Below are positions 17,919-34,099 of a stretch of DNA of 36,161 nt, one piece after another. Source of the DNA: a virus; IMG/VR virus record IMGVR_UViG_3300026521_000559, positions 1-36,161 of that record. One strand, 5' to 3'. Every line of letters starts with the position of its first letter. Position 1 is the first letter of the stretch. Under the pieces are notes generated by a model. It worked only from the letters and a program-made list of their open reading frames with translations, ran no database searches and was not told the DNA's origin. Both the position numbers and the translations under genes were made by a program.

Positions 17919-19676
17919 ATGATAAAAACAATAACGGATACTGTGATAGATTGTAGAAATTTATTGCAAAATACGACTACAAATTTACCAGAAGATTTAA
18001 TAAATGAATTAAATAGAATTTTTAATATTTTTGATAAGAGTTCTTCGCCTTCCGAAGAGTTATCTAACTCTTCGGAATATAATTTAATTACAAAGTTGTA
18101 TAAATTAAATGTATTGTTAACTAGATTAACTACAGAAAAAAAATTAAATAACATTTTTTTAAAATCGGTGGATAGAATGCTTCCGATAATAAACGAATCG
18201 ATTCGTTTATTATCATTAAATTATTTTCAAAATTTATATAACCTATCTACCGAGGCAGTTGAAAATAAATTAAAAAGTTTAGATCATTACGAGAAAATAA
18301 TAAATAATGATAAGGAACTAAATAAACTTTATAGAAACATGAGAAGTAAATATAAAAACAAAGACTTAATCACAAAAAGAGAATACTTTTTCAACGATGA
18401 AACCAAACCAAACGAGGATTCGTTTCATATAGTATTTCAAATAAATAAAAATTGTAATTTTAAATGTACTTATTGTTATGAAGGATTAGATAAAGTTACC
18501 GAAATTTTAGATATTAAAGATATCCCAAATATTGTTTTGGGTTTAAAAATATTTCAAGATCAGTTAAAAAAAACTAGTACTAAATATAAATTTTCGTTTA
18601 GTATTTTGGGAGGCGAACCAACAATTCTTCCAAAAAAATTAACTCATGCCTTAACAAAAGAATTAATGGATAAGTTAGAATTAACTTATATTATTTTAAT
18701 TACGAATAATTATTCAGCCGAGAAAACAAATAATTTTTTTCATCCGGAATTTCCAAAGGAAAAAATTAAAATACAAATATCATACGACGGTGGAAAAATT
18801 CAAAATGATTATAGAAAAGATATGTCTGGAAAAGGTACCTTATTATCAGGTAAACGAGAAATAATAAAATTGTTAGAAATATCCGATCCAAAAGTAAGAA
18901 TAGCTTTGAAAGCCACTTTACCTATGGAAGCAATAAAAGACTTAAAAAGTGTGATTTTAGATTATGTCGAATTTGAAAATCTTTTCAATACTCATAATAA
19001 TACTAGAAATTTTTCGTACTATCCAACTTTTGATACTACTTCTATTTTAATGTATAATTTAAGAATGGAAAGTTTATCTGGAAATGAATCACAAAAACAA
19101 AAGCTTCTTTCGGATATACACGAAAGTTTTTCATTTTTATTGGATTTTGAACTAAGTCGTTTAAGTAGTGGTAAAAAAGCATTTACAAGATGGTTTAGGG
19201 AAATAAGCTACACTGCTAATAAAACTCAATGTAGTGCGGGAAAATCCTTATTTGGATTGGATCAAAATGGTGACGGAAGATATTGCCATAGAACCGAATT
19301 TGGGGAAACTCATACCAATATTAAATTCCCATATGCTAAGAATCAATTAAATTCTTTGCTTTATGGTAATATAAAGGATTTAAATTTTTACAAAAAATTT
19401 GATAAAACTAAAAAAATCTTGGAACATACGGAAACCAAAAATTTTAGTCTATGTGAAAGTTGTATGACTCTAACGTGTGTTAAATGTCCTATGGTAAATA
19501 TTTCTCCTGATAGAGTATTGGATACGACCACTTCGTCCGATCTTTATAAAGATATGTATTCTCATGGGTTAACTCTATCATGCGAAATAAATAATATTAT
19601 TAGTAATTATTTATTTATTTTTACACAAATTGTATATAACAATGGAAAAAAAGAAAAGGAAAATTATGGGAATTGA
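17919..19676 (+). CDS. Radical SAM/SPASM enzyme, probable peptide maturase
   Basis: 585 aa, with GTAAAGGAATAATATATG. The radical SAM cluster motif is C179-x3-C183-x2-C186 (NCNFKCTYC), followed by ILGGEPT, the GGE motif that contacts SAM. The N-terminal 170 residues are an extra helical domain, which in peptide maturases often binds a leader peptide. The C-terminus carries SPASM-type cysteines: CSAGKSLFGLDQNGDGRYC, then CESCMTLTCVKCP, enough for auxiliary 4Fe-4S clusters. SPASM enzymes of this length commonly form thioether or carbon-carbon crosslinks in ribosomal peptides. The next gene overlaps by 11 nt and encodes a Cys-rich tail, so it is the natural substrate candidate. The family is certain; the reaction is inferred. 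Confidence 0.85.
   Translation: MIKTITDTVIDCRNLLQNTTTNLPEDLINELNRIFNIFDKSSSPSEELSNSSEYNLITKLYKLNVLLTRLTTEKKLNNIFLKSVDRMLPIINESIRLLSLNYFQNLYNLSTEAVENKLKSLDHYEKIINNDKELNKLYRNMRSKYKNKDLITKREYFFNDETKPNEDSFHIVFQINKNCNFKCTYCYEGLDKVTEILDIKDIPNIVLGLKIFQDQLKKTSTKYKFSFSILGGEPTILPKKLTHALTKELMDKLELTYIILITNNYSAEKTNNFFHPEFPKEKIKIQISYDGGKIQNDYRKDMSGKGTLLSGKREIIKLLEISDPKVRIALKATLPMEAIKDLKSVILDYVEFENLFNTHNNTRNFSYYPTFDTTSILMYNLRMESLSGNESQKQKLLSDIHESFSFLLDFELSRLSSGKKAFTRWFREISYTANKTQCSAGKSLFGLDQNGDGRYCHRTEFGETHTNIKFPYAKNQLNSLLYGNIKDLNFYKKFDKTKKILEHTETKNFSLCESCMTLTCVKCPMVNISPDRVLDTTTSSDLYKDMYSHGLTLSCEINNIISNYLFIFTQIVYNNGKKEKENYGN
18050..18077 (+). repeat. Stem-loop with 13-bp perfect arms in the rSAM gene start
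   Basis: TTCCGAAGAGTTA (18050-18062) and TAACTCTTCGGAA (18065-18077) are separated by 2 nt. It lies inside codons 44-53 of the SPASM gene. Confidence 0.85.
18185..18214 (+). repeat. Perfect 30-nt palindrome in the rSAM gene
   Basis: 15-bp arms without a spacer (GATAATAAACGAATC / GATTCGTTTATTATC), 107 nt after the previous stem-loop and in the same N-terminal coding part. Confidence 0.88.
19656..19668 (+). promoter_or_regulatory. SD choosing ATG 19666 for the Cys-rich protein
   Basis: AAGGA at 19656-19660 lies 5 nt before ATG 19666. A longer in-frame start at 19630 has no SD and would only add 12 basic residues that overlap the upstream gene, so 19666 is preferred. Confidence 0.65.
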
Positions 19677-20244
19677 AACGGAAATTGATAATCAAGTATG
19701 TCGGTTTAATACCACCTTATTCGAAGGAGGGGATAGTATTTATACTACCGGCGGTACAGAAAATACCGAAGATAATGATCCTCCCGAAATGGTAGAAGAT
19801 GTGGATGAAACGTGTCCAAGTTATAAAGCAATGTGTACTGAAAATTTAGCCGACGATATCGAAGATATATTTTCAGGTATATCTTCAAATGGTCCAGAAA
19901 TAGAAGAAAATCATTTAAAAAGCATATATGATATGTCCAAAACTTTATCCCAAGATAGAAATTTTTTAGAAATAGATGAAAGTTTAGTCGAAATTTCAGT
20001 TGGTGAAATAGTAGATCATGACGATTTCAATACTTTAAAAAATTGGACCGATTCTATAACGGCCGCTGAATTAAAGGTCGAATATAGACCAGCCGGAACA
20101 TTAATAGATATGGACGGATTTGTTGAATTAAAAGAAAAATTTAAAGAAATTGCAACATTATGTAATACAAATTCCCAGTGCGAATGTAATTCAATTTGTA
20201 CTTGTAATACCGTATGTACATGTAATTGCGATTCAAATTACTAA
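19666..20244 (+). CDS. Cys-rich protein with CxCN repeats; candidate rSAM-modified (RiPP-like) precursor
   Basis: 192 aa, starting inside the end of the SPASM gene (11-nt overlap). Residues 1-150 are very acidic and might act as leader or carrier. They contain only three cysteines (C12, C50, C57). The last 27 residues hold eight cysteines (C166, 172, 174, 178, 180, 184, 186, 188) in a repeat CECNSI-CTCNTV-CTCNCD and end DSNY. A long acidic leader plus a short Cys-repeat C-terminus next to a SPASM enzyme is the layout of thioether- or crosslink-forming peptide systems. Alternatives: a metal-binding (metallothionein-like) tail, a disulfide-rich virion tip, or a substrate of another rSAM in the operon. 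No protease or exporter gene is visible nearby. Confidence 0.72.
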   Translation: MGIETEIDNQVCRFNTTLFEGGDSIYTTGGTENTEDNDPPEMVEDVDETCPSYKAMCTENLADDIEDIFSGISSNGPEIEENHLKSIYDMSKTLSQDRNFLEIDESLVEISVGEIVDHDDFNTLKNWTDSITAAELKVEYRPAGTLIDMDGFVELKEKFKEIATLCNTNSQCECNSICTCNTVCTCNCDSNY

Positions 20245-20258: not shown

Positions 20259-20888
20259 ATGCAGGTAGCTATAATAAATAAAATAAAAGACAACTATATA
20301 ATTACCGATATATTGGAAGTTAATTCCGGAGATTTAAAATTTATAGATCTTTGGGCAAAAATTGAAGATAATGTAAAACAATTTTATAATTTTTTAAAAA
20401 ATAGTTATAAAAATATTTATATCGAAGAATCGGCTGTTTTAAAAAAAGAGATTCTTAAAAATGATTTTTTATATGATAAATATAAAAGACCTTCTAAATC
20501 GTCGGATAATGAAGCAACTGTAAGAACAGAGTTGGAAATTAAAAAAATAAAATTTTTAAAAGAACTCGATAACTTTTTACTAAATAATATTTCAAATATA
20601 GGTTTTTTAAAATATATTCAATATTTAAATTATTTTAATTATTTTGCTTCAAATGGTATATTTATTACCGAAGAAAATAAAGAGGAAAAATATATTGAGA
20701 TATTGGATTTGGATGACGAATCAGCAATTGAAAAATTAGAATTATATTTAACGATTCAGGAAGAATTAGAACCATTTTTAAAATTTAATGAAACTATTTC
20801 AAACTTGAAGGAAGAAATTATATATATGGATGAAGATGAATTTGAGTCAGAACGATTAAAATACAATGAATCTTTAAAATTAACGTAA
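20259..20888 (+). CDS. Hypothetical helical protein, 209 aa
   Basis: 209 aa, with AAGGATTTGTAATG; the stop overlaps the next start (TAATG). The N-terminus (1-25) is a small beta unit (VAIINKIKDNYIITDILEV); the remainder is helical and acidic at the end (EEIIYMDEDEFESERLKY). No cysteines, no known motif. The order SPASM enzyme - Cys-rich peptide - this gene suggests a partner such as a recognition or scaffold protein, or a fibre-assembly factor; neither is shown by sequence. Function unknown. Confidence 0.55.
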   Translation: MQVAIINKIKDNYIITDILEVNSGDLKFIDLWAKIEDNVKQFYNFLKNSYKNIYIEESAVLKKEILKNDFLYDKYKRPSKSSDNEATVRTELEIKKIKFLKELDNFLLNNISNIGFLKYIQYLNYFNYFASNGIFITEENKEEKYIEILDLDDESAIEKLELYLTIQEELEPFLKFNETISNLKEEIIYMDEDEFESERLKYNESLKLT

Positions 20889-21727
20889 TGCAATTATTAC
20901 AAGAAATTAAATTCGGATCTCGTAAAAGAGGTTCGAATACTATTCCTGCGAAAATTTTTAGAACGTTTGAAAACTATGAAATTATTACAGATTTAACGAA
21001 TTTAAATCCATCGGAGAAATTTATTAATTTTTATAGAATACCAAAGAAAGAAATTTTTAATGATAATTTATTATTTACATATTCTCAATCAAAAGAGGAA
21101 TTAATACAGAGAGGATTATTTACAAATGCTTTAAATTTATCTTTTTTAAAATATAATTCCAAAATAGTTTCCAATGGTTTTTATTATTCTAAATATTATA
21201 ATATGTTATATTTTCCAACTTATTTTTATTCGATCCATGATATAAATATGGTATATAATATTAAAAAATCGTATAAATATGGTTTTTATAATAGATTGGA
21301 ATGTCCAAACGATAGGGAAATATTAAAAAAATATTCCCCGGAGGAATTATTAATTTTTGGAAATTTTGGAAATGAAAAAAAATTCGATAGTCTTACCGAC
21401 CAAGGACTTTTTTTTAATAGTTTTGAAACTTTAATTGTTAATAACGAACCAAACGATTCGGTTTCGAATACCTTATTAGAAGGTATTTTTCTAAAGAAAA
21501 AAATAAAAATGGAAAATAATTTTAATATAGCTAATGATAATAAGGCATTGTTAGAAGCTCGTTTTAGATTAGGATATGATAATTTATTCAAAGCTCTTGA
21601 TAATTTAAATATTTATTGTTGGTATGATTTAACAGAAGATAATTTTAACGACCGTTTGGATTATATAAATAAATTGATTAAACAATCAGTGACCTTTGAT
21701 CAATTTTTACAAAAAGGATTTTTATGA
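20888..21727 (+). CDS. Unknown protein, possibly glycosyltransferase-related, 279 aa
   Basis: 279 aa, 1-nt overlap upstream and 4-nt overlap downstream. Residues about 60-205 alternate short strands and helices with many aromatic residues. The stretch with SFETLIVNNEPND, then VSNTLLEGIFLKKK (about 175-205), resembles the acidic 'sndp..ntllEg...kk' nucleotide-sugar motif of GT-B glycosyltransferases, and a comparable segment occurs in the 596-aa protein two genes later (FQFDCSPRFIAECQFYNKKV). The N-terminal domain expected in a full GT-B enzyme is not obvious, so the call is weak. Confidence 0.4.
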   Translation: MQLLQEIKFGSRKRGSNTIPAKIFRTFENYEIITDLTNLNPSEKFINFYRIPKKEIFNDNLLFTYSQSKEELIQRGLFTNALNLSFLKYNSKIVSNGFYYSKYYNMLYFPTYFYSIHDINMVYNIKKSYKYGFYNRLECPNDREILKKYSPEELLIFGNFGNEKKFDSLTDQGLFFNSFETLIVNNEPNDSVSNTLLEGIFLKKKIKMENNFNIANDNKALLEARFRLGYDNLFKALDNLNIYCWYDLTEDNFNDRLDYINKLIKQSVTFDQFLQKGFL

Positions 21728-22416
21728 AAATAGAAACAGTATTTTATTTAACAAAAGAGTGCAATTTTAAATGTACATATTGTTATAAAGGGGATCAGAA
21801 AAATAAAGAATTGCTTTCAGAAAAACGAATTGATATAATATTAAAAGAATTTTTAAAAAATTCGCATAATATCGATACTTTTTATTTACGGGTTCGTGGG
21901 GGCGAAATTAGTATTAACGAAGAAACAATCCCATTAATAAAAAAACTTATGGATTTTTTAGAAAAATTATCCTCGCGAGGAATAAAGGTATTATTTGAAT
22001 TTAGTACAAATTTTAAAAATAAAAATTACTTTAAAAAATTAACAAAACTATTTTATAATTACAATATACCAATTAAAACTGATTTTAGTATACATTTTGA
22101 ATACTATAATCATAAAAATAAATATAAAATAATAAATAAAATATTATATATTATAAAACTTTATCCTAAGGCTCTCTATAGAATCGTCTTTGATAATTTT
22201 GATGAAGCTCAACACGAACTATTAAAACTATCTTTTATTGATATTGGAATACCTTTAAAATTTTCAAATACCTATGGCTTATTTTTAGAAAAATCTCGTG
22301 AAAAATATGATTTAAAAATATTAGTGGATAATAAATTATTACCACTTGTTAACGATAAAAGAATATCTATTAAAAAATTCTTAAAATTAACCAATTCGGA
22401 AATATTATGGAAATAA
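21724..22416 (+). CDS. Compact radical SAM protein without SPASM domain
   Basis: 230 aa, with AAAAGGATTTTTATG and an ATGA overlap. C13-x3-C17-x2-C20 (ECNFKCTYC) is followed by RVRGGEIS near residue 58 and EFSTNFKNK, the strand/loop features of the radical SAM barrel. It is shorter than a typical SPASM enzyme and I see no further cysteines, so there is no auxiliary cluster. The last 60 residues are unlike a SPASM tail. It might work on a small molecule or on the product of its neighbours, or be a partial barrel that needs a partner. Overlap with the next gene is 10 nt. Confidence 0.75.
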   Translation: MKIETVFYLTKECNFKCTYCYKGDQKNKELLSEKRIDIILKEFLKNSHNIDTFYLRVRGGEISINEETIPLIKKLMDFLEKLSSRGIKVLFEFSTNFKNKNYFKKLTKLFYNYNIPIKTDFSIHFEYYNHKNKYKIINKILYIIKLYPKALYRIVFDNFDEAQHELLKLSFIDIGIPLKFSNTYGLFLEKSREKYDLKILVDNKLLPLVNDKRISIKKFLKLTNSEILWK

Positions 22417-24197
22417 TTCTTACCTATTGTCCAAGTGATTTTGAAAAAAATAGAATCTGTGGGCACACTTTCGAAGTAATGGATTATTATTTATTGTTTA
22501 CTCAACTTGGGTATAAGGCAAAAATTCTTATTCAGGATAGTATAGAGAAAAATCGGTTGTATAAGGCATGGGAGGATAAATACGATAATGAATATTTGGA
22601 TAAAAACTATAAGATGGATATTATTTTTAAAAAAAGTAAGATAATAAAAGCAGATATTTTAATTTTCGTAGATGGGTTATATAATTATTATATAGATACT
22701 TATATTTTAAAATATAAGTATCTATATATATTTCGATGTAATACGAAAACAAATTATAAAATTCTACTAAAAAATAAAAATGTTTTCTTATTTCAAGATT
22801 ATAGAGTTTATCAGGATTATCATAATTATACAAATGTTATAAACTATGTAAAAAAAATAAAGTTCGATAATTATAAAAAATATTCAAAAACCAAAACAAA
22901 TAAAACTCTAGTATATATAAATTCGAATTTAAGAAAATTAGAAACTCCTTTACCAAAAAATCGTAATTATATATATTTATCTGGAACTAATTTATCAAAA
23001 GATTATATAAAATCCTTGAGTATAGGATTTAAAGATCTTATATATGCTCCAGTAGAAAACCTTTTTGAAAAATTTGACGAATTTTTATATACTAGTACTA
23101 AATTTCAATTTGATTGTAGTCCTAGATTTATCGCGGAATGTCAATTTTATAATAAAAAAGTATCCTTTAATTTCGATATTGAAAAATATTTTGAAATCGA
23201 TACTGGATTAAAGTGGAGATGGTACGATACTATAAATAATTTTAATAATTTAGTATTAAATAAAGAGGATTTAATTATAAAATATTTAAAACGGATATGT
23301 GTCCCAAGTGCTCCAAGTACCTTTCAAGCGGTTAGTAATGAACATACTTCTTATCATATAGAATTTCCAATAACATATAAATGTAATTTCAATTGTGAAT
23401 ATTGTTATGCTAAGGAAGAAATATCTTCAATAAATAAAGATATTTCTTTAAGTTCGATAATATCATCTATTAACCATTTAAAAACTTTTTCGAAAAATTG
23501 TTCGGCTAACATTAAAAAATATCTTTATTTATTGGGAGGCGAGCCAACAATACATAATAATTTTAAAATAATTTTAAAATTATTATTACCCCTGGACGAT
23601 TCTTTTAAAATTCATTTGGTGACAAATTCTAAAAATATTTTAAAATATAAAAATGAATTATTAAAATTTAAAAATTTAAAAATTACGTTATCTTTTCATC
23701 CAACTCAAATGACCACCACTGATTTCTTAAAAATCCTCGAAAAATCTTTTGTCGTTTTTAATAATAAAATATTAATCGAACCAAGCATTCCCGATATAAT
23801 GGATAGTAAAAAATATAAAATGGATTTACAAAGAATATTTAATTTTTGTAAAAAAATAAATATTCCAATAGATTATAATATTATTAATAGTACGGAATGG
23901 TATTCCGCCGAAAAAGAAACAAAATCTTTTAATATTTTTAATAATTTAGAAAGCAATAATGATAAATTTATATTAAATAATATTGTATATTCTTATTCCG
24001 AAATAGTAAAAAATAAGTTGGATAATTTTTTTGGTTGGTATTGTTATTCGAAAGTTTTTAAAGCTACTGATAAAGGTTTAAAGCATGCATGTACTAACCA
24101 AGATATAAAAGACTTAATCGATAAACCAGTAATATGTCCATTTAATAAATGTGAATGTGAATATTATTTAAAAGGTAAAAAAATAAATGACAGATAA
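22407..24197 (+). CDS. Fusion: N-terminal glycosyltransferase-like domain + C-terminal radical SAM/SPASM
   Basis: 596 aa. Residues 1-290 look like a GT-B-type domain: MEIILTYCPSDFEKN.. near an ICGHTFEVMDYYLLF helix, LIFVDGLYNYY, a middle strand YINSNLRKLE, and FDCSPRFIAECQFYNKKV near 235-260. A linker with PSAPSTFQAVSNEHTS leads to a radical SAM part: C326-x3-C330-x2-C333 (KCNFNCEYCYA), LYLLGGEPT near 374, LVTNSKNI, ITLSFHPTQM, and a C-terminal set FGWYCYSKVF, HACTNQDI, CPFNKCECEY. The whole C-terminal half is paralogous to the 314-aa protein at 30194. Fusing the two domains suggests that sugar transfer and radical chemistry act on one substrate. A 40-nt palindrome lies in the GT part. Confidence 0.72.
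   Translation: MEIILTYCPSDFEKNRICGHTFEVMDYYLLFTQLGYKAKILIQDSIEKNRLYKAWEDKYDNEYLDKNYKMDIIFKKSKIIKADILIFVDGLYNYYIDTYILKYKYLYIFRCNTKTNYKILLKNKNVFLFQDYRVYQDYHNYTNVINYVKKIKFDNYKKYSKTKTNKTLVYINSNLRKLETPLPKNRNYIYLSGTNLSKDYIKSLSIGFKDLIYAPVENLFEKFDEFLYTSTKFQFDCSPRFIAECQFYNKKVSFNFDIEKYFEIDTGLKWRWYDTINNFNNLVLNKEDLIIKYLKRICVPSAPSTFQAVSNEHTSYHIEFPITYKCNFNCEYCYAKEEISSINKDISLSSIISSINHLKTFSKNCSANIKKYLYLLGGEPTIHNNFKIILKLLLPLDDSFKIHLVTNSKNILKYKNELLKFKNLKITLSFHPTQMTTTDFLKILEKSFVVFNNKILIEPSIPDIMDSKKYKMDLQRIFNFCKKINIPIDYNIINSTEWYSAEKETKSFNIFNNLESNNDKFILNNIVYSYSEIVKNKLDNFFGWYCYSKVFKATDKGLKHACTNQDIKDLIDKPVICPFNKCECEYYLKGKKINDR
22689..22728 (+). repeat. Perfect 40-nt palindrome inside the GT-rSAM fusion gene
   Basis: 20-bp arms without a spacer, centred at 22708/22709 (TTTT|AAAA). 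Read in the coding frame it gives a tyrosine-rich segment around YIDTYILKYKYLY, and the opposite strand spells the same peptide. Confidence 0.92.
23416..23448 (+). repeat. Stem-loop with 12-bp perfect arms beside the CxxxCxxC motif
   Basis: AAGAAATATCTT (23416-23427) and AAGATATTTCTT (23437-23448) flank a 9-nt loop, just after the Fe-S cysteine codons of the fusion gene. With the other internal palindromes it points to a class of intragenic inverted repeats. Confidence 0.7.
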
Positions 24198-25137
24198 AGA
24201 ATGGTATCGCAATCTAATTAAAGAAAAATTTAAACCTCGTATAGTAGTATTGGATTTAAACGATCCGTGCTATTTAAATTGTAATTTTTGTCCAAAAAAT
24301 AGTATTCATCATAAGTTCATGACTAATTCAAATAATTTAGAAAAAATATTTTATATTATTGATTATTTTATTGAACTTGGTGTTCAATCGTTCGAAATTA
24401 CTCCAACCATAGGTGATTCCATAAATAATAAAAATATAATAGAAATTTTAGACTATATTAAAAGTAAGAATAAAAAAGCATTTATGTTTACATCCTTATT
24501 GGGAAAAGACTCCTCGGATATTATTAAAAAAATTCCTCGGATAATCGATAGGCCAGATTTTTATTTGGTTATAAGTATATATGGATTAACGAAAAAAACT
24601 TTTTTTCAAAAGACAAATTCCAACGATTTTTTAAATTTTAAAAAAAATTTATTTTTCTTATTGGATAATTTTAAAGAATTATCTAGTTCTCTGGATAATT
24701 CTTTTTTAATTCTTCGTAATCGTTTTAATAATTCTGTTTCTTTAGATTATAAATTATTCGAAAGTTTAGAAAAAAAATATTCTAATTCCAGAATATTATT
24801 CGAAAGCTATCATCCAGATATATACAAAACGAATAATAAATACAATAATATATGTTGTAATTTTTTAATTAATTTTGGATGTAATTTAAAAGGCGAGGTA
24901 CGATTTTGCAATTACGCTTATGGAGCGCCAATAATAGGAAATATTTTTGATGGTACATTTAATCAAAATGATTTAAATAAATATTTTGAAAAATATTTAA
25001 ATAACGAATTCTGTAAAAATTGCATACTTTACGAAGAAGTAGAAAATAAACATGATATTATAAACGAAAGTTATAAATTTAAATCTTTTAAAAACGAAGG
25101 TATAGATTTTAATATAGGATTAACAAAGGAAATTTAA
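24187..25137 (+). CDS. Radical SAM protein of the 'TPTxGD' type
   Basis: 316 aa, 11-nt overlap with the fusion gene, 1-nt overlap downstream. C28-x3-C32-x2-C35 (PCYLNCNFCPK). Where other rSAM proteins here have GGE, it has FEITPTIGD, a variant seen in some radical SAM families of surface-glycan clusters. C-terminal cysteines CC (NICCNFLINFGC), VRFCNYAYG and FCKNCILYEE could bind an auxiliary cluster (SPASM-like). The whole protein is paralogous to the C-terminal part of the next gene (561 aa), which shares the TPTxGD and CKNC elements. Reaction unknown. Confidence 0.78.
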   Translation: MTDKEWYRNLIKEKFKPRIVVLDLNDPCYLNCNFCPKNSIHHKFMTNSNNLEKIFYIIDYFIELGVQSFEITPTIGDSINNKNIIEILDYIKSKNKKAFMFTSLLGKDSSDIIKKIPRIIDRPDFYLVISIYGLTKKTFFQKTNSNDFLNFKKNLFFLLDNFKELSSSLDNSFLILRNRFNNSVSLDYKLFESLEKKYSNSRILFESYHPDIYKTNNKYNNICCNFLINFGCNLKGEVRFCNYAYGAPIIGNIFDGTFNQNDLNKYFEKYLNNEFCKNCILYEEVENKHDIINESYKFKSFKNEGIDFNIGLTKEI

Positions 25138-26822
25138 TGGAATTAAATAGTAAAAACACTTCTTTATTTTTCGTAATTGAAAATAAACATAATTTAATAA
25201 TAGAAACCAAGAGAAGTATTTATCATATTATAGAAAATCAAAGTTGGATAAAAACCATAAAAATATATTTGGTTACCCCAACTAATTTATTTTTACCGAA
25301 AAATATTAAAAAAGAATTTTTAGATATTTACGAAAATATAGAATTTATAGAAAAAGATATAGTGAGGTATTCGGATCATGTTTTTTTCAACATGATTTAT
25401 GGGTGTTATTTAGCCGAGGAAAAAATAAAAAGTAATTATTTAATATATCTAGATTGTGATATGTATTTGGTAAATAATTTCCCTTCTTCTTTTAAAGGAG
25501 AATTAATATTAGAATCCGAAGGTTATTATAATGAAGAATCGGATAAATGGCTAATGACTAAAAAAAAGTGGTTAAATATGTTAAAAATAAAAAATTCGGA
25601 AAATATAATATACACAAATACCGAATTTATAATAACCAATACCGAATTAAAAATATTTTCTAAGTGGTTAAATACTTTTGAAAATTTATATCCAAAACTA
25701 AAAAAAATAGAAAATAAATATCCAAAAATAGGTTTTGATATTTCGTGTATGGAAGAAACCAGCTTCGAAATTATGGTTTTAAATAATCATTTTGATCGAA
25801 TTTTATATCTTCCTAATCTTGTTGCAAGATTAGGGAACCCTACAGCGATTCCAGATACACCTAAAGCAAAAAAAGAAATTTTATTTATTAGCCAACATTT
25901 AGAAAAAATAGACGATATTTTATTTGATTATACTAGCGATTTTAAACAGAATACTATAACTATGGAATTAATATATTCGTGTGAATTTGATTGTTTCTTT
26001 TGCGAAAAACCAAATTTGGAAAAACCCATAATTTTAGAATTAGATAAATTTAAAAAGTATTTGGACAAATTAATTATAAATGGTATAACTACTATAGATT
26101 TAACCCCAACTAAAGGAGATATTTTAAATATTCCAAATTTAGTAGAATATTTAAAAATTTTAGAAAATTCGGATATCAATAATTATTACTTCTATACTTC
26201 AATAGCTACCAATAGAAAACTATCTTTAGATAATGAATACGATAAGGAATTAATCAATTTTATTAATACTAGTAAAAAAATATATATTTATTATTCATGT
26301 TATCTTGATAACGATTTCCAAACTTTTTATAAAATAGTTCGAAAAGATAAATCCGTTTATGATCTTAATATCCTAAACAGTAAGTTTTTATTAAAAAATA
26401 TTAATAAAAATAAAATAACATTTATAGATAGGGTAAATAAGTATCCATTTAGGCTTTTAATAAAAAATAATCATTTGGCTCGTTTAGCTCATATTAAACA
26501 GATTCCGATAATTTGTGAAGATGATGATTTAAAACAAAATCGGGATAATTTTTTAAGACATACTGCTTTTTGTGAACAATTTTTATGTTGCAGTACTTTA
26601 AAAATTAATGGAGATTTAGTATATTGTAATTATGGAAAATCGTATTACGATGGAGTAGTTGAACATATTTCGACATTTACAAATAATAATTTATTAACCA
26701 AGGAATTAATTAATAACGATCTATGTAAAAATTGTTTATATAAAATGGAATCTGGTATCTCGGAACTTATCTGGAATAAAGAATCATTTCTTATCAATCA
26801 TTCAAAGGAAACATCATGTTAG
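25137..26822 (+). CDS. Fusion: GT-A glycosyltransferase + 'TPTxGD' radical SAM
   Basis: 561 aa. Residues 1-255 are a GT-A-like nucleotide-sugar transferase: a first strand LFFVIENKHNL, the DxD metal site YLDCDMYLV with D106 and D108, FIITNTELKIFSKWL, and FDISCMEETSFEIMV, the acceptor-loop region. Residues about 270-561 are a radical SAM domain: C282-x3-C286-x2-C289 (SCEFDCFFCEK), IDLTPTKGD, then FCEQFLCCSTLKINGDLVYC and LCKNCLYKME. This half is paralogous to the free-standing 316-aa protein just upstream. It is the second GT-rSAM fusion in the operon but with a different GT fold from the first. Overlaps the next gene by 7 nt. Confidence 0.75.
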   Translation: MELNSKNTSLFFVIENKHNLIIETKRSIYHIIENQSWIKTIKIYLVTPTNLFLPKNIKKEFLDIYENIEFIEKDIVRYSDHVFFNMIYGCYLAEEKIKSNYLIYLDCDMYLVNNFPSSFKGELILESEGYYNEESDKWLMTKKKWLNMLKIKNSENIIYTNTEFIITNTELKIFSKWLNTFENLYPKLKKIENKYPKIGFDISCMEETSFEIMVLNNHFDRILYLPNLVARLGNPTAIPDTPKAKKEILFISQHLEKIDDILFDYTSDFKQNTITMELIYSCEFDCFFCEKPNLEKPIILELDKFKKYLDKLIINGITTIDLTPTKGDILNIPNLVEYLKILENSDINNYYFYTSIATNRKLSLDNEYDKELINFINTSKKIYIYYSCYLDNDFQTFYKIVRKDKSVYDLNILNSKFLLKNINKNKITFIDRVNKYPFRLLIKNNHLARLAHIKQIPIICEDDDLKQNRDNFLRHTAFCEQFLCCSTLKINGDLVYCNYGKSYYDGVVEHISTFTNNNLLTKELINNDLCKNCLYKMESGISELIWNKESFLINHSKETSC

Positions 26823-27844
26823 AAAAATCGGAAAAAATATTTATTGATATAGATTCTGAACTTAGAGAAAGTACTTTACTTTTAGAATTTCAGTTTCATG
26901 ATGTATGTAATATAAAATGTTCGTATTGTAAATTAAATTCGGGGAAAAATATACTTGAAAAAAAGTATTTAGATAATTTAATATTATTTATTAACGATTA
27001 CGAATTACAAAATAAATTTACAAATATTGAAATTATGATTATGGGTGGCGAAACATTTCTAAATTTACCAATTTTAACAGAGTTATTCGATACGATACAT
27101 AACTTAAATAATATTATTCCAGTGTCACAGATACTTTTACTAAGTAATTTTATATTACCAACCGATTTGATAACGGAGCAAATGAGATATTTAAAATCAT
27201 TTGGTATTCCAATAGATTTGGAAATTACCCTCCATGCACAAGAATATTCTTATACTCAATTAAGATTATTCTTAAAAAACTATAAATTATTTAGAAATGA
27301 AATTTCGAGTATTAACGTACTCGAAGGAAATATAAAATATACGAAAGAATCTAAATTTTTAACACTTTATAAAATAATTATAAATACTTTTTTAAAAGAT
27401 AAAAAAATAATAAATAATGTTTATATATGTGATATAAATAAAATAAAAAAGGATGGTTTATCGTTTAAAGAAGAATCTAATATATTATCTAACTACGGGA
27501 TAATTATGTCGAATCTTGGAAATTTATTTATGGAATATAATTCTGATAACTCTAGAAATTCGGAACCAATTACTTTGGGAAAATTAAATAAATTTATTGG
27601 AGATTCAAATTATAGTTGCGAATGCAACGTTAAGAATAATTTAGTTCTTGATGCTACTGGACATTTAAGATGGTGTGGAAATTTTGACCAATTTCAGGAA
27701 GATGTTATACCAAATATAAAAATGATTCCAGAAGATTTTAAAAAAATATATTCTTATTTTTTTACAGATTGTTCTATAAGATGCCCATATTCATTGTGTA
27801 TGGGAGGAGTATTTAATCAATTAAAAATAAAGGAAAAAAAATGA
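26816..27844 (+). CDS. Radical SAM/SPASM-like protein, 342 aa
   Basis: 342 aa, with AAAGGAAACATCATG. C31-x3-C35-x2-C38 (VCNIKCSYCK), IMIMGGETF near 78 and ILLLSNFILP are the core features. The C-terminus has CECNVKNNLVLDATGHLRWC and then DCSIRCPYSLCMGG, which is a SPASM-type auxiliary-cluster arrangement ending like the CxxCxxxxxC of that domain. It does not belong to either of the two paralogous pairs. Translationally coupled on both sides (7 and 4 nt). Confidence 0.8.
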   Translation: MLEKSEKIFIDIDSELRESTLLLEFQFHDVCNIKCSYCKLNSGKNILEKKYLDNLILFINDYELQNKFTNIEIMIMGGETFLNLPILTELFDTIHNLNNIIPVSQILLLSNFILPTDLITEQMRYLKSFGIPIDLEITLHAQEYSYTQLRLFLKNYKLFRNEISSINVLEGNIKYTKESKFLTLYKIIINTFLKDKKIINNVYICDINKIKKDGLSFKEESNILSNYGIIMSNLGNLFMEYNSDNSRNSEPITLGKLNKFIGDSNYSCECNVKNNLVLDATGHLRWCGNFDQFQEDVIPNIKMIPEDFKKIYSYFFTDCSIRCPYSLCMGGVFNQLKIKEKK

Positions 27845-28800
27845 AAAAATATAATAAAACATTACTCAATATATTATCAAATAAAATATTTGATTATCTA
27901 ATAACCAATCTTCCAAAAGCATATCCGGAATTAAATGAACCAGACGTAACAATAAAAATTGATTATATAAAGGATAAAATAGTTCCAAAATTTATAGAAT
28001 ATGGGAATGATATGGATAATCCAGAAATGAAATTATCTAAAGTTTTCCTATGGGATAAATTAGAAATAATTAATAACGGAAAATTGGAAAATTGGTATTT
28101 TAAAGACTCTTTCTTAAATAATATTATTTTTAATACCGAGTACCATGAATACAGAGAATACAGAGAATACATAAATGATTTTAATTTTGCAGAAACGGAA
28201 TCGTTTGTTATTTTAAAAAAATATCCAAAAATAGCCATTAAAAACATTTTAGCATGTTATCCAAAAAATAAAACTTTTGAACATCCAAATTATTTTTTTG
28301 AGTTGGATAATATTTTTTATAAAGTGAGTAAACCAGTCTTTAGTAATATTAGTTGTTTTAAAGATGTCGTATTATTTGGAAATTCTCGGTATAATGATTC
28401 AGGATATAGATTAATTTTATTGGTAACCAACTTAACGGAAGTAGAAAATATAAAAAAATTTTTCAATAAAAATAATTTCATGTTTAAATACGTTACTGTA
28501 ATCTTAGAAAAGGATTTTTTAAATTTACCACTTTCTGAAAAAATGGATATTTTTCAGAAAAAAGATATAACTATCGAAAATATTAAAAAATATGATTTTA
28601 GAATAAATCAACTTAATTTTCATCCGAAATTAGATTATTTTTACGATAATAAAAAGGAGGTTTTTAAGATTATGATAGAAGATATAAAAAAGATATTACT
28701 AAATAATAAACTTAATAAACATAATAAACAAGTAAGTGAATATACACCTGATATAAATACCAAAAATATGGATTACCAAAATGAAATCTATTCAAAATAA
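27841..28800 (+). CDS. Hypothetical protein, 319 aa
   Basis: 319 aa, with AAAGGAAAAAAAATG. I do not recognise it. The N-terminal half is helical; about 170-245 looks like an alpha/beta unit (DVVLFGNSRYNDSGYRLILL, then FKYVTVILEKDF). A short tandem repeat near residue 104 encodes EYREYREY (three 9-nt units at 28147-28173). The C-terminus is Lys/Asn-rich and overlaps the aminotransferase gene by 20 nt. It may bind a nucleotide or a small substrate, but there is no motif to support a function. Confidence 0.5.
   Translation: MKKYNKTLLNILSNKIFDYLITNLPKAYPELNEPDVTIKIDYIKDKIVPKFIEYGNDMDNPEMKLSKVFLWDKLEIINNGKLENWYFKDSFLNNIIFNTEYHEYREYREYINDFNFAETESFVILKKYPKIAIKNILACYPKNKTFEHPNYFFELDNIFYKVSKPVFSNISCFKDVVLFGNSRYNDSGYRLILLVTNLTEVENIKKFFNKNNFMFKYVTVILEKDFLNLPLSEKMDIFQKKDITIENIKKYDFRINQLNFHPKLDYFYDNKKEVFKIMIEDIKKILLNNKLNKHNKQVSEYTPDINTKNMDYQNEIYSK
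28147..28173 (+). repeat. Tandem 9-nt repeat (GAATACAGA), 3 units
   Basis: Units at 28147, 28156 and 28165 (the last ends ATA). Being a multiple of three it inserts Glu-Tyr-Arg steps without a frameshift. Confidence 0.75.
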
Positions 28801-29413
28801 TAATCATTTTTTAAATACGTTTGAAAAACGTATTTCCGAAGTTACTGGAGCACCGTACGTGGTTCTTACGGATAGCTGTAGTAACGCTATTTTTATAACT
28901 ATATGGTATCTAAAAAAAATAAAAAAAATAAAATTTCCAAATAAAATTATTATTCCAAATAGAACGTATATAAGTGTTCCGAATGCTATTTTTCGCAACG
29001 GCTTAAAACCAGTATTTAAAAAAATAAAATGGTTTTCTAGATATCGGATTGGAACTTTGCCTATTTGGGATTGTGCAGTAGGATTTGAAAAAAATATGTA
29101 TATAAAGAAACAATATATGTGTTTAAGTTTTCAACAAAAAAAAGCTATTGGTATTGGAAAAGGTGGAGCAATTTTATTAGATAATAAAAAAGATTATTTA
29201 TTTTTAAAAAGACTTGTTCATGACGGAAGAGATTCTGGAATACCAGTATCCAAGGATACCAATATTATATATGGATTCCATATGAATATGACTCCTGATC
29301 AAGCGGCTAAAGGAATTTTATTATTAAATCAGTATGTATTTGCCGATCGAGATCTTGGTTCATATAAAAATTATCCAAAATTAAGGAAAATTTGTGAAAA
29401 AAATTACAAATAA
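28781..29413 (+). CDS. DegT/DnrJ/EryC1-type PLP aminotransferase, shortened
   Basis: 210 aa, overlapping the previous gene by 20 nt and without a clear SD. DegT-family features: PYVVLTDSCSNAIF for the SGT loop, KIIIPNRTYISVPNAIFRNG for the P..T.....ai...G strand, PIWDCAVGF for the EDaA(h)-type Asp that binds PLP, SFQQKKAIGIGKGGAILL with K121 as the Schiff-base lysine, and RLVHDGRD. These enzymes aminate keto sugars. Family members are about 370 aa; here the C-terminal 150 residues (small domain) are missing. The following 266-aa frame is not that domain. It may be a natural minimal form or a remnant that is still in frame. A 10-bp stem-loop lies at 28813-28835. Confidence 0.75.
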   Translation: MKSIQNNNHFLNTFEKRISEVTGAPYVVLTDSCSNAIFITIWYLKKIKKIKFPNKIIIPNRTYISVPNAIFRNGLKPVFKKIKWFSRYRIGTLPIWDCAVGFEKNMYIKKQYMCLSFQQKKAIGIGKGGAILLDNKKDYLFLKRLVHDGRDSGIPVSKDTNIIYGFHMNMTPDQAAKGILLLNQYVFADRDLGSYKNYPKLRKICEKNYK

Positions 29414-30194
29414 ATCTTTTGATTCTTTACTTAATTTTATAAAACCATATAAAAAACAATTGGATAATATAAAAAATTTGGATATTATTTTAGGACAATC
29501 TGAGAATTGGTATTTATACCATAATCCAAAAAATAAACCGTATTGTTTTTACAGTAGTATAAATAATAAATTATTAAAGGTTATTTTTTTAAAAGAATTG
29601 GAAAAAAATAACTTTTCTAATTCTTTTGATATTTTAAAATTAAAAAAATATTTAAAAACTTTAGAACAACAAGATAAAATAAAATTTATATCGGATGATA
29701 TATTTTTTTTAGAATGTCCGAAATACCCAAAATTAAATATAACCATAAAGGAATACATTGTTTTAATTAATTCGATTAAAAAAAAATTAAAAAAATTTGA
29801 TATTTATTTTGATATAGATTTAAATATTATCGAAATCGATCCAAAGCAATTAAATATTTCTATCCATGAGAACGATCTTTTAATTTTGGATTATAAAATG
29901 TTGCAATTTTATTCGCCGGAAAAATTAATGGATGGAAAATTATTTGAATATAATATAAAAGATGAATTTATTATATATTTTTATTATTTTAAAAATGAAT
30001 TTAAACTCGAATTATTTGATGTTGGTACTACCGAAACTATCCCATTTCAGGAAATATCCGAATTATTAAATAAAAGATTAATTAAAATTTTAAATACCTT
30101 TAAATATAAAAATATTTTAAAATGTTTTAAATTATTGGCAAATGTATTAAGCACATTTAATTATAATAACCATAATATTAAAGGAGTTGATTAA
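29394..30194 (+). CDS. Hypothetical protein, 266 aa (GTG start)
   Basis: 266 aa. GTG at 29394 with AAGGAAAA about 6 nt upstream sets the start, overlapping the aminotransferase gene by 20 nt. It is Lys/Ile/Phe-rich with a helical N-terminus (1-90), a mixed middle (125-185) and a beta-containing C-terminal part (FIIYFYYFKNEFKLELFDV). There are no cysteine pairs or catalytic motifs. I do not recognise it. It is translated together with the rSAM gene that follows (1-nt overlap). A role as a substrate-binding or acceptor-handling protein is only a guess. Confidence 0.5.
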   Translation: MKKITNKSFDSLLNFIKPYKKQLDNIKNLDIILGQSENWYLYHNPKNKPYCFYSSINNKLLKVIFLKELEKNNFSNSFDILKLKKYLKTLEQQDKIKFISDDIFFLECPKYPKLNITIKEYIVLINSIKKKLKKFDIYFDIDLNIIEIDPKQLNISIHENDLLILDYKMLQFYSPEKLMDGKLFEYNIKDEFIIYFYYFKNEFKLELFDVGTTETIPFQEISELLNKRLIKILNTFKYKNILKCFKLLANVLSTFNYNNHNIKGVD

Positions 30195-31138
30195 TGAAAG
30201 CTTTCCAAGGAATCAATCATAAGAAAAACAGATTATATATTCATTGGGATATAACTACCAAATGTAATTATAAATGTAATTATTGTTACGCGGAAAATGA
30301 ATATTCTAAAAAAGAAGAATGGAATTTGGAATCGAATGAAAAAAATATTAAAAGTATTATAACTTCATTAAGATTAAGCGCTCTTCCTATTTTTTTAGGA
30401 TTGCTTGGAGGAGAACCAACTCAATCAAAATATTATTTTAAAATTTTAGAAGAAATTGAAAATAATATTTTACCAAAACATAAAGATAATAGATTATATA
30501 TTACTACAAATCTTAGTAAAGATTTGGATTATTGGAAAGAACATCCAAAAATAAAAAATACTTTTATATTGTGTAGTTTTCATCCGGAATATTTTAAAAT
30601 AAATACAATTAATAAAATTAAGAAATATGTCGAAAAATTAGAATATTTGAATAAATATTTTAGAGTAAAAGTCAATATAATGTTAGATCCAAAATATGAT
30701 AATATTACTCAGGAATGGTTAAAAATTTTACCAAATATTTCCAAAGACATATTAATACACCCACATATTATTTATCCAGATGGAAGTCCACATAACGACT
30801 TACAGATCATGTATGAAACATCTTTTGATAAATATCAAGAAATATATAAATACATGTGTAAAGAATATGAATATATTATAAATGATAAAAAAGAACATTT
30901 AAATGATATAGAAGTTTTTTCTAAGAACTTAAATAAGTTTAAAGGTTGGAAATGTTATCAAAATAATTATGAAATATCTTTTAATGGTTTGGTTAGTTCT
31001 TCCTGTTTTCCAGGAACAGTTTCTTTAGGAACTAACCCAATGTATTTTAAAAAAATTAAAGAGGTACTATCTAAAACATGTCCTCATAATTTTTGTAACT
31101 GCGACGGATTACTAAAATGTCAAAAAATATTAAACTAA
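30194..31138 (+). CDS. Radical SAM protein, 314 aa, paralogue of the fusion's C-terminal half
   Basis: 314 aa, with AAAGGAGTTGATTAATG. C24-x3-C28-x2-C31 (KCNYKCNYCYA), FLGLLGGEPTQ, LYITTNLSKD, FILCSFHPEYF and the end FKGWKCYQNNYE, SSSCFPGT, CPHNFCNCDG. The matching elements of the 596-aa fusion (CNFNCEYCYA, LYLLGGEPT, LSFHPTQM, FGWYCY, CPFNKCEC) occur in the same order, so the two are paralogous modules, here without the glycosyltransferase. Overlaps the GT gene by 22 nt. Confidence 0.8.
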   Translation: MKAFQGINHKKNRLYIHWDITTKCNYKCNYCYAENEYSKKEEWNLESNEKNIKSIITSLRLSALPIFLGLLGGEPTQSKYYFKILEEIENNILPKHKDNRLYITTNLSKDLDYWKEHPKIKNTFILCSFHPEYFKINTINKIKKYVEKLEYLNKYFRVKVNIMLDPKYDNITQEWLKILPNISKDILIHPHIIYPDGSPHNDLQIMYETSFDKYQEIYKYMCKEYEYIINDKKEHLNDIEVFSKNLNKFKGWKCYQNNYEISFNGLVSSSCFPGTVSLGTNPMYFKKIKEVLSKTCPHNFCNCDGLLKCQKILN

Positions 31139-31737
31139 GTATATTAATACCAACTCATGATAGACCAGAACAATTACAGAATTGTTTGTTGAGTATCTGT
31201 AAAGCAGATATACAAATACCTTACGAAATTATTATTAATTGTGATGATAATTCTATTAAAGATATAAACTTTAATAAATATAAATTACCAATTAAGATTT
31301 ATAATAATAAATTTTTTAATTGGGGACAAGTATATAATTTTTTATATAAAAAATCAAATGGAAACTATATTTATTTCTTAGAGGATGATGATTTATTATT
31401 AACATCATTTGATTTTCTCGATTATGATTTTGACTATTATTTTGGAATGTATTATCCAAACAAAAGAGAAAATAATACTCTTAAAAAATTTAGAAATTCT
31501 TTTAAAAGAATATGGAGTTTTACACATACTAAATTATTTTTTAATTATAATATTCCAGAAAAATTTATTCATTTCCAGTTGGGCCAGATAATTATTAAAA
31601 AAGAAATTATTAAAAAATTTCCAAAAACCGATAATAAATATAATGATTATTATTTATTTGCTAAAAATCCAGGAACTATTAAATACATAAATAAACTATT
31701 CTATAAACAAGGAGAATCCCATTACAATGTTTCATAA
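31117..31737 (+). CDS. GT2-family (GT-A) glycosyltransferase
   Basis: 206 aa. KLSILIPTHDRPEQLQNCLL is the opening strand and nucleotide site of the GT2 fold, EIIINCDDNS is the second acidic motif, and YIYFLEDDDLLL carries the metal-binding acidic cluster. It is short for the family (about 250-300), so it may lack an acceptor helix, but the catalytic half is intact. It starts 22 nt inside the end of the rSAM gene. It probably transfers a sugar in the same product pathway. Confidence 0.8.
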   Translation: MSKNIKLSILIPTHDRPEQLQNCLLSICKADIQIPYEIIINCDDNSIKDINFNKYKLPIKIYNNKFFNWGQVYNFLYKKSNGNYIYFLEDDDLLLTSFDFLDYDFDYYFGMYYPNKRENNTLKKFRNSFKRIWSFTHTKLFFNYNIPEKFIHFQLGQIIIKKEIIKKFPKTDNKYNDYYLFAKNPGTIKYINKLFYKQGESHYNVS

Positions 31738-32485
31738 AACAATACAAGAAATATATCAAAAATTAACTATAAAAAAATTACTTCAATATAGTATAGATAA
31801 CAATCTAAAACATATACCAAGTGCTCTCAGTCAATTCAAATATCTTAAATACTTATTACCAAAACTCGATTATGATAATACGAATATAGTAATAGGCAAG
31901 CCCTTTGGTTCTCAGGCTTATTATATGATCTGGAAAGAACTTGGATTAATAGCTAATCAAAAATTATCATATGGTGTTAAACATGACGAAATAGAATTCG
32001 TTAATTACGGTGAAGAAACGCTTGGAAACGCCTTGGGTATAGGATCTGGAATATCGTTAGGAAGTCCCGATAAACTAACCTATGTTAACCTAAGTGATGG
32101 TGCTTTACAGATGGGTCCAACCTTAGAAGCTATACAATTCATAGGAAAGCATCAATTAAATATGATAATTACCGTTGATTTTAATGGTATGCAATTAACG
32201 GATAGTATTCAAAATATTTCTGGAATCAATAGTTTAAATATCGAATCGATATTTAAACTATATAATATAGAAACTTATCTTATAGATACCACAGTTTTAA
32301 ATATTCATGAAATAAATTTAATTATAAATAGCGTTTTACTAAATCAAAAAGAAACTAAGAAACCAACGACCTTGATATTTAAAACTATTAAGGGTCATGG
32401 AGTTAAAGAAATGGAAGAAGATCCAATATTTTGGCACTATAAAGAATTAAAAAATATTGGTGATATAACTATCGTAAATAACTAA
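31727..32485 (+). CDS. Transketolase N-terminal (ThDP-binding) subunit
   Basis: 252 aa, with AAGGAGAATCCCATTACAATG. GEETLGNALGIGSGISLG, then VNLSDGALQMGPTLEAIQF and IITVDFNGMQL form the ThDP/metal motif (DG...14..N form). IFKTIKGHGVKEMEEDP and FWHYKEL match the transketolase KG.GV..ME....WH segment. It carries only the PP domain; the partner with the Pyr domain is the 152-aa gene at 33641. Split transketolases of this kind in sugar clusters move a two-carbon unit onto a sugar. Last gene of the overlapping operon. Confidence 0.85.
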   Translation: MFHKTIQEIYQKLTIKKLLQYSIDNNLKHIPSALSQFKYLKYLLPKLDYDNTNIVIGKPFGSQAYYMIWKELGLIANQKLSYGVKHDEIEFVNYGEETLGNALGIGSGISLGSPDKLTYVNLSDGALQMGPTLEAIQFIGKHQLNMIITVDFNGMQLTDSIQNISGINSLNIESIFKLYNIETYLIDTTVLNIHEINLIINSVLLNQKETKKPTTLIFKTIKGHGVKEMEEDPIFWHYKELKNIGDITIVNN

Positions 32486-32531
32486 CATACGACACTTAGT
32501 TAACTATCAGTACACACACTATGAATAGTTA
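32475..32531 (+). repeat. 57-bp direct repeat, copy 1
   Basis: Identical to 32671-32727. It starts inside the last codons of the transketolase gene (TAAATAACTAACATACGACA) and contains TTAACTAT...ATAGTTA arms of an imperfect palindrome. Confidence 0.93.
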
Positions 32532-32604
32532 TTCGTTTTATAAAATTCCTAGCTAACAGATTTTAAAATAAACTTAAATTCTGTTCTTGGATCCCCTATT
32601 TACC

Positions 32605-32760: not shown

Positions 32761-33342
32761 ATGATATTGGTAACAGGAGAAAAAGGTTATTTGGGAAAAG
32801 CCTTCCTAAATTATAAAATTAATGATTTTATAACTTTAGAAGATTATTTTCTAAATCCTTGTCCAGAAAAATTAACTAAAATTATCCATATTGCTGGAGT
32901 ATCAGATAAAAAAGATTTTAAAAATATTAAAAAAACTACCGAATCGATGATAGTATTAACCCAACAATTGGTAAATTTAGCAAAACAAAATAATATAGAA
33001 TTTATATTTTTTAGCTCGGAAGCCGCTATAAGTGATTTAGATATTTATGGTACTTATAAAAGATCTATGGAATTTTATATAAAAGCTTTTTTAAAAAAAT
33101 ATAAAATATTAAGAATACCTAGAATTTATTCTAGCTGTAGAGAAAAAGGTTTAATCAAATTATTAAAAAATAAAGAAATTCCAAAAAAAGATTATAACAA
33201 TACGGTTGAATTTTTAGATTTAGATGAATTCGTCCCACAAGTTTATCATTATATATTCGAAGAGAAGTCTTCTCGGATATATTATTTTAAAAGGTTAGAG
33301 ACAAAAACAATTAAAGAAATAGAGGAAAGATATGTTAATTAG
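32761..33342 (+). CDS. Short-chain dehydrogenase/epimerase-like protein (NAD(P)-binding)
   Basis: 193 aa, with ATAAGGATTATAATG. VTGEKGYLGKAF is the TGxxGxxG dinucleotide motif; the active-site pair is Y96-x3-K100 in the context FFSSEAAISDLDIYGTYKRS, with the preceding Ser cluster. Extended SDRs that epimerise or reduce nucleotide sugars have about 300 aa; here the substrate-binding domain is only 60-70 aa, so it is a short member. LRIPRIYSS and EFLDLDEFV match typical C-terminal elements. It overlaps the next gene by 11 nt and sits between the two transketolase halves, which suggests work on the transketolase product. Confidence 0.8.
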   Translation: MILVTGEKGYLGKAFLNYKINDFITLEDYFLNPCPEKLTKIIHIAGVSDKKDFKNIKKTTESMIVLTQQLVNLAKQNNIEFIFFSSEAAISDLDIYGTYKRSMEFYIKAFLKKYKILRIPRIYSSCREKGLIKLLKNKEIPKKDYNNTVEFLDLDEFVPQVYHYIFEEKSSRIYYFKRLETKTIKEIEERYVN

Positions 33343-33640: not shown

Positions 33641-34099
33641 ATGCGCAAATTAATAGCAAATTATTTAAAAGAGACCGATTATTTATTACATGCCGATATG
33701 TTTAATATTAAAAACTTTCCAACAAAAGCCAATATAATTAATATTGGTCTTGGCGAAAGTAATTTATTAAATATTGCTGGTGGTTTATCTAGTCTTGGTA
33801 ATACCGTATATATTTATGGAGTCGCTGGTTTTATAATACATAGATATGAACAATTAAAATTTAGCTGTAGAGATTTTGGATCTAAGAATGGTAAAATAAT
33901 TATATGTAATGCTGGTAAATTTGGATATGAGAATTTAGGAGATGGACATAAATTAGATGATGATTTAGAAATTATGGAATTATTAAATATTGAATATTTT
34001 CAACCAGAAACTTTAGAACATACGCAAAATATTTTAGAGGATTTAAATAAAAAAGAAAATGGAATATATTATATTCAACTGGGAAAAGATCTTTCGTAG
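33641..34099 (+). CDS. Transketolase C-terminal subunit (pyrimidine-binding domain)
   Basis: 152 aa, 3 nt after the glycine-rich gene. INIGLGESNLLNIAGGL carries the catalytic Glu (GxGESN); AGFIIHRYEQLKFSCRDF is the F...R..EQl strand; GYENLGDGHKLDDDLE is the GdGxTHq..eD region with its His. The terminal transketolase domain (about 120 aa more in the family) is absent, so only the minimal Pyr domain is present. Combined with the 252-aa PP subunit at 31727 it gives a two-part ThDP enzyme. The terminator hairpin follows. Confidence 0.8.
   Translation: MRKLIANYLKETDYLLHADMFNIKNFPTKANIINIGLGESNLLNIAGGLSSLGNTVYIYGVAGFIIHRYEQLKFSCRDFGSKNGKIIICNAGKFGYENLGDGHKLDDDLEIMELLNIEYFQPETLEHTQNILEDLNKKENGIYYIQLGKDLS

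Follow-up and report, generated by a model that had tools for sequence, protein, structure and literature searches.

Why does a tailed phage gather eight radical S-adenosylmethionine (rSAM) domains, two of them fused to glycosyltransferase (GT)-like domains, directly behind a tail-fibre-like gene? This question is raised by the IMG/VR virus record IMGVR_UViG_3300026521_000559, whose whole stretch of 36,161 nucleotides is called the window here (W; GC content 26%) and in which all eight domains lie within 17.9-35.5 kb. An initial annotation had read four of them as two paralogous pairs performing radical reactions during or after two glycosylations. It passed over both a candidate substrate, the Cys-tailed protein encoded at 19675-20244, and the place of the whole block among the versions of a fibre-associated cassette that is widespread. 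The genomic association of this cassette with fibre tips is strong, being seen in the sequences, gene order, conservation, adjacency, enrichment and variability; from it we infer the substrate, the order of the steps and their chemistry, and propose with moderate confidence that the region modifies tail-fibre tips post-translationally, by maturation and glycosylation.

A scan with the portal gene (9772-12012), which is distantly related to that of AR9/PBS1-type phages (24%), retrieved three close relatives, namely G1 (97%), G2 (95%) and G3 (76%); L-numbers below denote other viral contigs or loci. Scans with an alignment of the rSAM protein A585, with the Cys repeat and with a profile of the N-terminal domain of the 596-aa fusion were also productive, and the whole 596 fusion, used as a single protein, gave no matches. 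A core composed of A585, the Cys-tailed protein, a p209-family protein and a 279-aa protein is conserved across W, G1, G2 and G3 at 32-60% identity, with the Cys-rich gene directly 3' of A585 in all four phages; few stretches of the encoded protein vary as little as its C-terminal Cys motif. Portal identity among W, G1 and G2 is 97-98% over the part compared, yet the upstream fibre (47-48%) and the Cys tip (43-45%) have diverged, and cassette genes have been exchanged between these near relatives. Beyond the core the modules vary: the set D316/E561/F342 is common to the window and G3, the set G314/GT2/transketolase/epimerase to the window and G2, and G1 carries mostly other modules. The core and the gene ahead of it are as follows.

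15859..17871, + strand: tail-fibre-like protein, last gene ahead of the cassette; its C-terminal part resembles, by eye, the fibre protein at 3940-5382 of L134; no Pfam match; 47-48% identical to its counterparts in relatives with a 97% portal.
17919..19676, + strand: A585, rSAM/SPASM-like, candidate maturase of the Cys-rich protein; 50-58% identity in three relatives; matches NCBIfam peptide-maturase models.
19675..20244, + strand: Cys-rich protein of 189 aa ending in CNTNSQCECNSICTCNTVCTCNCDSNY, the proposed fibre tip and substrate; Cys tail kept in four phages; stands in the gene-order slot of S74-bearing Cys-repeat fibre proteins.
20259..20888, + strand: p209-family protein, partner of the tip gene and possible assembly factor; 36 of 39 distinct tips are followed by a family member no more than three genes on, and gp015 of Campylobacter phage CP220 is another.
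20888..21727, + strand: 279-aa protein, possibly GT-like; 47-54% identity in three relatives; no Pfam match; resembles the 596 N-domain at the level of a profile motif (P 0.0065).

The A585 scan led to L134, a 202-kb phage in which the cassette likewise stands after tail-fibre genes, in the order UDP-glucose dehydrogenase, three rSAM proteins, Cys-repeat protein, p209, rSAM, 596-type GT-like protein, H340-like rSAM, GT2 and G314-type rSAM. Here a 252-aa protein carries (CTCNCNY)n directly before a Peptidase_S74 chaperone (Pfam, 24.2 vs 22 bits). Such chaperones release themselves by cleavage at the Ser of SDxRLK, which would leave the Cys repeat as the end of the mature fibre. Dozens of phage contigs share this arrangement of genes around a Cys-repeat fibre protein. 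The S74 signature follows the Cys repeat in 28 of the 39 distinct tips, and an rSAM gene lies within the three genes before 33 of them. Furthermore, rSAM density reaches 3.18 per 10 kb at 32 (CxCNCNY)n loci versus 0.03 in 79 control viral loci, the latter being mostly out-of-frame chance matches of the short Cys pattern and hence a non-random choice. The 596 N-domain profile gave 77 loci with 66 distinct proteins, on contigs that in some cases also appear in the Cys-repeat scan, and by itself led to a Cys-dense tip at 34 of 66 loci and to p209 at 44 of 66; it is also the source of the 39 distinct tips. Some phages hold tip genes in tandem, four in L164/L286 and three in L167/L281, as if alternative tips were stocked. 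L136, L138, L140 and L141 carry islands of another type, with 7-9 rSAM-motif genes per 15-20 kb (CNLKCRMC, CQLACVMC), and a scan of protein tails found no Cys-dense end in them.

The rSAM proteins encoded beside the tips point to a possible chemistry. For the three that lie 5' of the L134 tip, no NCBIfam model scores better than that of the ranthipeptide maturase PapB (E down to 2e-40), and the best models for A585 are mostly peptide maturases as well (PapB, E 1e-11; rSAM_vs_C_rich; CefB), its bacterial matches resembling generic rSAM similarity. A homologue of A585 is found directly 5' of the Cys-repeat tip in L172. PapB forms Cys thioethers, and since the tip-linked rSAM proteins match it best, the reactions probably begin with a cross-linking of the Cys tip. 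The window tip has six-residue repeats (CECNSI CTCNTV CTCNCD) and many related tips likewise show CxCNxx, which ties the window tip to this family. The likeness to PapB-type systems, in which an rSAM/SPASM enzyme acts on a ribosomally made peptide, thus consists of the best model match and of a Cys-rich target encoded nearby; the differences are scores below the curated cut-off, a thioether that is only presumed here, and a fibre protein in place of a small secreted precursor. Indeed, the tips are fibre-type proteins of about 170-530 aa, not small leader-core precursors, and no protease or transporter is among the Pfam matches of the cassette. QhpD, the rSAM maturase of quinohemoprotein amine dehydrogenase, cross-links Cys residues inside a structural protein subunit. 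It is a second-line NCBIfam match of the tip-linked proteins, below cut-off, and resembles the proposed reaction in its Cys cross-linking of a structural subunit, which in its case belongs to an enzyme and not to a virion.

The remainder of the cassette, in which the rSAM genes are intermingled with GT-like and sugar genes, comprises:

21724..22416, + strand: rSAM B230; Pfam E 2.6e-5, below cut-off.
22407..24197, + strand: 596-aa fusion (C596) of a GT-like N-domain (aa 1-298) and an rSAM domain (Cys motif from aa 326; Pfam E 2.9e-8); N-domain 49-57% identical to unfused proteins in G1, G2 and G3.
24187..25137, + strand: rSAM D316, 316 aa, with TPTIGD; 52% identical to the G3 protein at 14306; in a clade with E561 and CP220 gp087.
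25137..26822, + strand: 561-aa fusion (E561) of a GT-A-like N-domain (DCD at 106-108, His254) and an rSAM domain (TPTKGD); 65% full-length homologue in G3.
26816..27844, + strand: rSAM F342; Pfam Fer4_12/Radical_SAM; 58% in G3.
28781..29413, + strand: compact DegT/DnrJ/EryC1 aminotransferase, predicted to serve sugar-donor synthesis; Pfam E 1.5e-14.
30194..31138, + strand: rSAM G314, 314 aa; Pfam E 1.6e-9; 78% in G2, 59% in G3, 35-39% in many phages.
31117..31737, + strand: GT2 glycosyltransferase, overlapping its partner G314; Pfam Glycos_transf_2 E 1.1e-7 (32.4 bits vs cut-off 23.3).
31727..32485, + strand: transketolase-like thiamine diphosphate half, N part of a split enzyme; Pfam Transketolase_N E 7.5e-8; family present in G2, L129, L142, L178 and Campylobacter phages.
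32761..33342, + strand: NAD-dependent epimerase/dehydratase-like protein; Pfam Epimerase E 4.6e-6.
33641..34099, + strand: transketolase/DXPS-like pyrimidine-binding half, second half of the split enzyme; weak DXPS model match; co-occurs with the N half in G2, L129, L142 and L178.
34472..35494, - strand: rSAM H340, conserved at the far border; Pfam E 3.3e-20; 72-73% in relatives; homologue of CP220 gp163.

The epimerase-like gene sits between the two halves of the transketolase-like enzyme, a pair which is also dispersed in Campylobacter phages. Two further cassette proteins (27841-28800 and 29394-30194) have no family match and no homologue in the compared stretches of G1-G3. Outside the cassette, a partition protein gene (93-854, PHROG 691) lies 5' of the structural genes, and an HNH/homing-type endonuclease gene with zinc-ribbon-like repeats (3133-4446) is placed amid them, with a 56% homologue at another site in G2.

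What, then, joins the GTs to the rSAM enzymes? Separate GT and rSAM genes of these subfamilies, for which a search had been suggested, do occur: both fusions correspond to adjacent unfused genes in other phages, and because of this a functional coupling of GT with rSAM is well supported. In G3 the 596-type N-domain and an rSAM protein related to the fused domain come from separate genes with a 25-base overlap; in Campylobacter phages the two genes adjoin (gp184, gp183). None of the 66 distinct viral relatives of this N-domain is fused, and 59 have an rSAM neighbour, which in 54 cases overlaps or stands at most 10 bases away. The 596 fusion, which has no Met between its two domains, may with these 0/66 fused relatives be an assembly error; the 561 fusion is the safer of the two as a genuine fusion, being present in a second phage (G3). 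The CP220 counterpart of E561 is the rSAM gene gp087 followed by the GT-A-like genes gp088/gp089. Similarly, every one of 15 distinct GT2 proteins of the 31117 family has an rSAM neighbour, versus 26% of other genes at the same loci. It is because this GT2 gene overlaps G314 that the latter is not the free copy it had been taken for, but one with a GT partner of its own. Pairing of a fused with a free copy as a heterodimer was not retained as a reading, because G314 has its own GT partner, and nothing in the analysis pointed to heterodimers.

The GT domains themselves are recognised with unequal certainty. The protein at 31117 is, by its family match, firmly assigned as a glycosyltransferase. 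The N-domain of E561 is likely a GT-A-like one: it has no Pfam GT match, has an invariant D106xD108 and a terminal H254, and is homologous to CP220 gp089 (z 10.9), for which, as for gp088, the CP220 records note SSF53448 (0.0065 and 2.6e-9, respectively). For the 596 N-domain, neither a Pfam GT model (22 members) nor a PDB relative was found, and its GT4-like profile match, at a DCSPRxxxEC motif, is weak (P 0.008). Sequence searches of PDB with the GT-like domains, A585 and the D316/E561 rSAM domains yielded no convincing relatives. The claim that one member of each pair carries a GT domain is likely for E561 and weak for C596.

The four rSAM domains of that annotation are real, two of them within the fusions (22407-24197 and 25137-26822) and two as single proteins (30194-31138 and 24187-25137). 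All contain the CX3CX2C cluster motif (CNFNCEYC, CYLNCNFC, CEFDCFFC, CNYKCNYC) and match Pfam Radical_SAM, D316 and E561 under the curated cut-off. C596 and G314 do share the motifs ascribed to them (CNFNCEYCYA/CNYKCNYCYA, LLGGEPT, SFHP, GWYCY/GWKCY, CPFNKCEC/CPHNFCNC), and TPTIGD/TPTKGD and CKNC are present in D316 and E561, whose remaining common element is CNY(G/A) and not CxNYG. Compared with shuffled sequences, the alignments of C596 with G314 (score 232, z 23) and of D316 with E561 (score 170, z 10.7) stand out, and cross-pair alignments (54-65, z ~1) are not above chance. In a 40-domain tree D316, E561 and CP220 gp087 form a clade with 99% support in the Shimodaira-Hasegawa-like approximate likelihood ratio test (SH-aLRT), and by sequence D316/E561 is a true paralogous pair, older than the window phage. 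The second pair that had been proposed was not recovered, a clade of C596 and G314 being 18.5 log-units worse, although not rejected (P of 0.11 in the approximately unbiased test). The best match of the C596 rSAM domain is a domain in a sister phage, with a weak grouping with a G3 protein on the tree; as a match to C596, G314 is equalled or surpassed by at least 14 rSAM domains from other phages, and is itself a member of a widespread family that many phages encode beside a GT2 gene. On these comparisons, C596 and G314 are two members of a broad group that have only broad subfamily features in common. A single clade or family of all four domains was rejected (p 0.012).

Following from these observations, we hypothesize that the Cys-rich tail of the tip protein is the target of A585 (17919), which would probably form Cys thioether cross-links in the manner of ranthipeptide maturases, and that p209 (20259) would aid folding or assembly. 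The exchangeable modules would each couple a GT to an rSAM enzyme, either fused (596, 561) or side by side (31117 with 30194), such that the GT would put a sugar on the fibre and its partner would alter the sugar or join it to the protein, the aminotransferase, the split transketolase and the epimerase providing an unusual sugar donor. Both pairs of the initial annotation would then be parts of such modules.

Several points weigh against this proposal. A585 reaches 44.5 bits with the PapB model, whose curated cut-off is 340 bits, and the L134 protein at 7264, at 138.8 bits, is below it as well. The window tip ends in ...CNCDSNY and has no Peptidase_S74 domain by Pfam, differing in this from S74 (endosialidase chaperone) tail fibres, which most related tips resemble by ending in an SDxRLKxxI chaperone. 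With its Cys residues masked, a profile of the window tip finds other tips weakly (E 0.011 and 0.17), and tblastn of the protein against phages gave nothing convincing; since masked similarity is weak and S74 absent, it is chiefly gene order and the Cys motif that connect it to the other tips. The candidacy of the 596 N-domain as a glycosyltransferase is weak. Finally, in L142 (147 kb) and L129 (31 kb) the GT-rSAM-transketolase half occurs with neither Cys tip nor p209. The Cys tip is therefore not necessarily its target, and this half may act on another part of the fibre or on the host. In L142 this half (G010 93-112 kb) comes after an S74-type fibre gene, and in both phages LmbE-like and polysaccharide-deacetylase-like genes follow it, as judged by eye.

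Could the cassette instead remodel the host surface (capsule, lipopolysaccharide (LPS) or flagellar glycan), for example to block other phages, with the fibre neighbourhood merely marking a host-interaction island? The host recognition cluster of pelagimyophages, a fibre island that is likewise hypervariable and includes GTs and rSAM cassettes, has its GTs read in this way, as modifying host LPS, and the passages covered here name no Cys-rich tip or rSAM target (PMC7029224). The occurrence of the GT half apart from the Cys tip, and the differing cassettes of near relatives, would also suit such a role. We nevertheless consider it rather unlikely, as the tightest linkage is that of the Cys-repeat fibre protein with p209, and the core rSAM proteins resemble peptide maturases.

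The separability of the halves, with only the second present in L142 and L129, could equally mean that two independent systems share one island, rSAM tip maturation (17919-20888) and a GT-rSAM system (22407-34099) decorating another fibre protein. This we judge unlikely, given that the loci retrieved by the 596-type domain so often also hold a Cys tip (34/66) or p209 (44/66), in a fixed order.

A further possibility is that the Cys tip binds metal or an Fe-S cluster, or forms disulfides unaided, and that the rSAM genes are auxiliary metabolic genes for small molecules, nucleotides or host metabolism. The Cys spacing could bind metal, and the rSAM genes of Campylobacter phages were earlier read as a boost to host metabolism (PMC2853527); the roughly hundred-fold enrichment of rSAM genes beside tips and the fixed gene order render this improbable. 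That the modules produce a hypermodified nucleotide for phage DNA is scarcely credible, for although these Campylobacter phages also have 7-deazaguanine-type genes (annotated QueC, QueD, QueE), Pfam found no DNA-modification gene in the window cassette, whose neighbours are fibre genes and which has a GT2 gene of its own.

Returning to the modification of fibre tips, the Campylobacter phages CP220 and CPt10 (Firehammervirus; PMC2853527) offer a close cultured parallel. Like the window they are AT-rich and hold several rSAM, GT-like and sugar genes that have been exchanged among nearly identical genomes, including homologues of both window pairs (gp087; gp183/gp184; CP21_027); they differ in that the parts are dispersed, no GT-rSAM fusion was seen, and gp140 was left unconnected there. 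CP220 encodes the toolkit across its genome: Cys repeats (gp140), p209 (gp015), UDP-glucose dehydrogenase (gp019), gp184 with gp183, transketolase-like halves (gp141 and gp072) and the rSAM proteins gp023, gp136, gp099 and gp163. For gp023, PapB is the best NCBIfam match (E 2e-38), below the curated cut-off. Its gp140 (L024 5933-7537) contains CTCDCNY heptads and is annotated as no more than hypothetical, with 21-bp repeats.

The literature covered, which left out preprints and most subscription journals, contained nothing tying rSAM genes to fibre tips, nor did it describe Cys-repeat tips together with rSAM genes. The enzymes are of known kinds; what would be new, provided that the fibre is the substrate, is the whole system of rSAM and GT finishing of fibre tips. 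More tentatively, and with somewhat less confidence than in the modification of tips as such, we suggest that phages widely possess an unrecognised system whose rSAM enzymes cross-link a Cys-repeat tip and whose GT-rSAM pairs add sugars altered by radical reactions, creating an exchangeable and exotic receptor-binding tip, a reading that is testable in phages already cultured. If true, radical enzymes would gain a structural virion protein as substrate, and the abundance of rSAM genes in Campylobacter and marine phages, remarked as odd since 2010, would be explained. The variation of phage fibres is usually ascribed to their sequence; host recognition would then possess a chemical layer that is invisible to genome annotation, and exchange of cassettes between phages would amount to exchange of tip chemistry.

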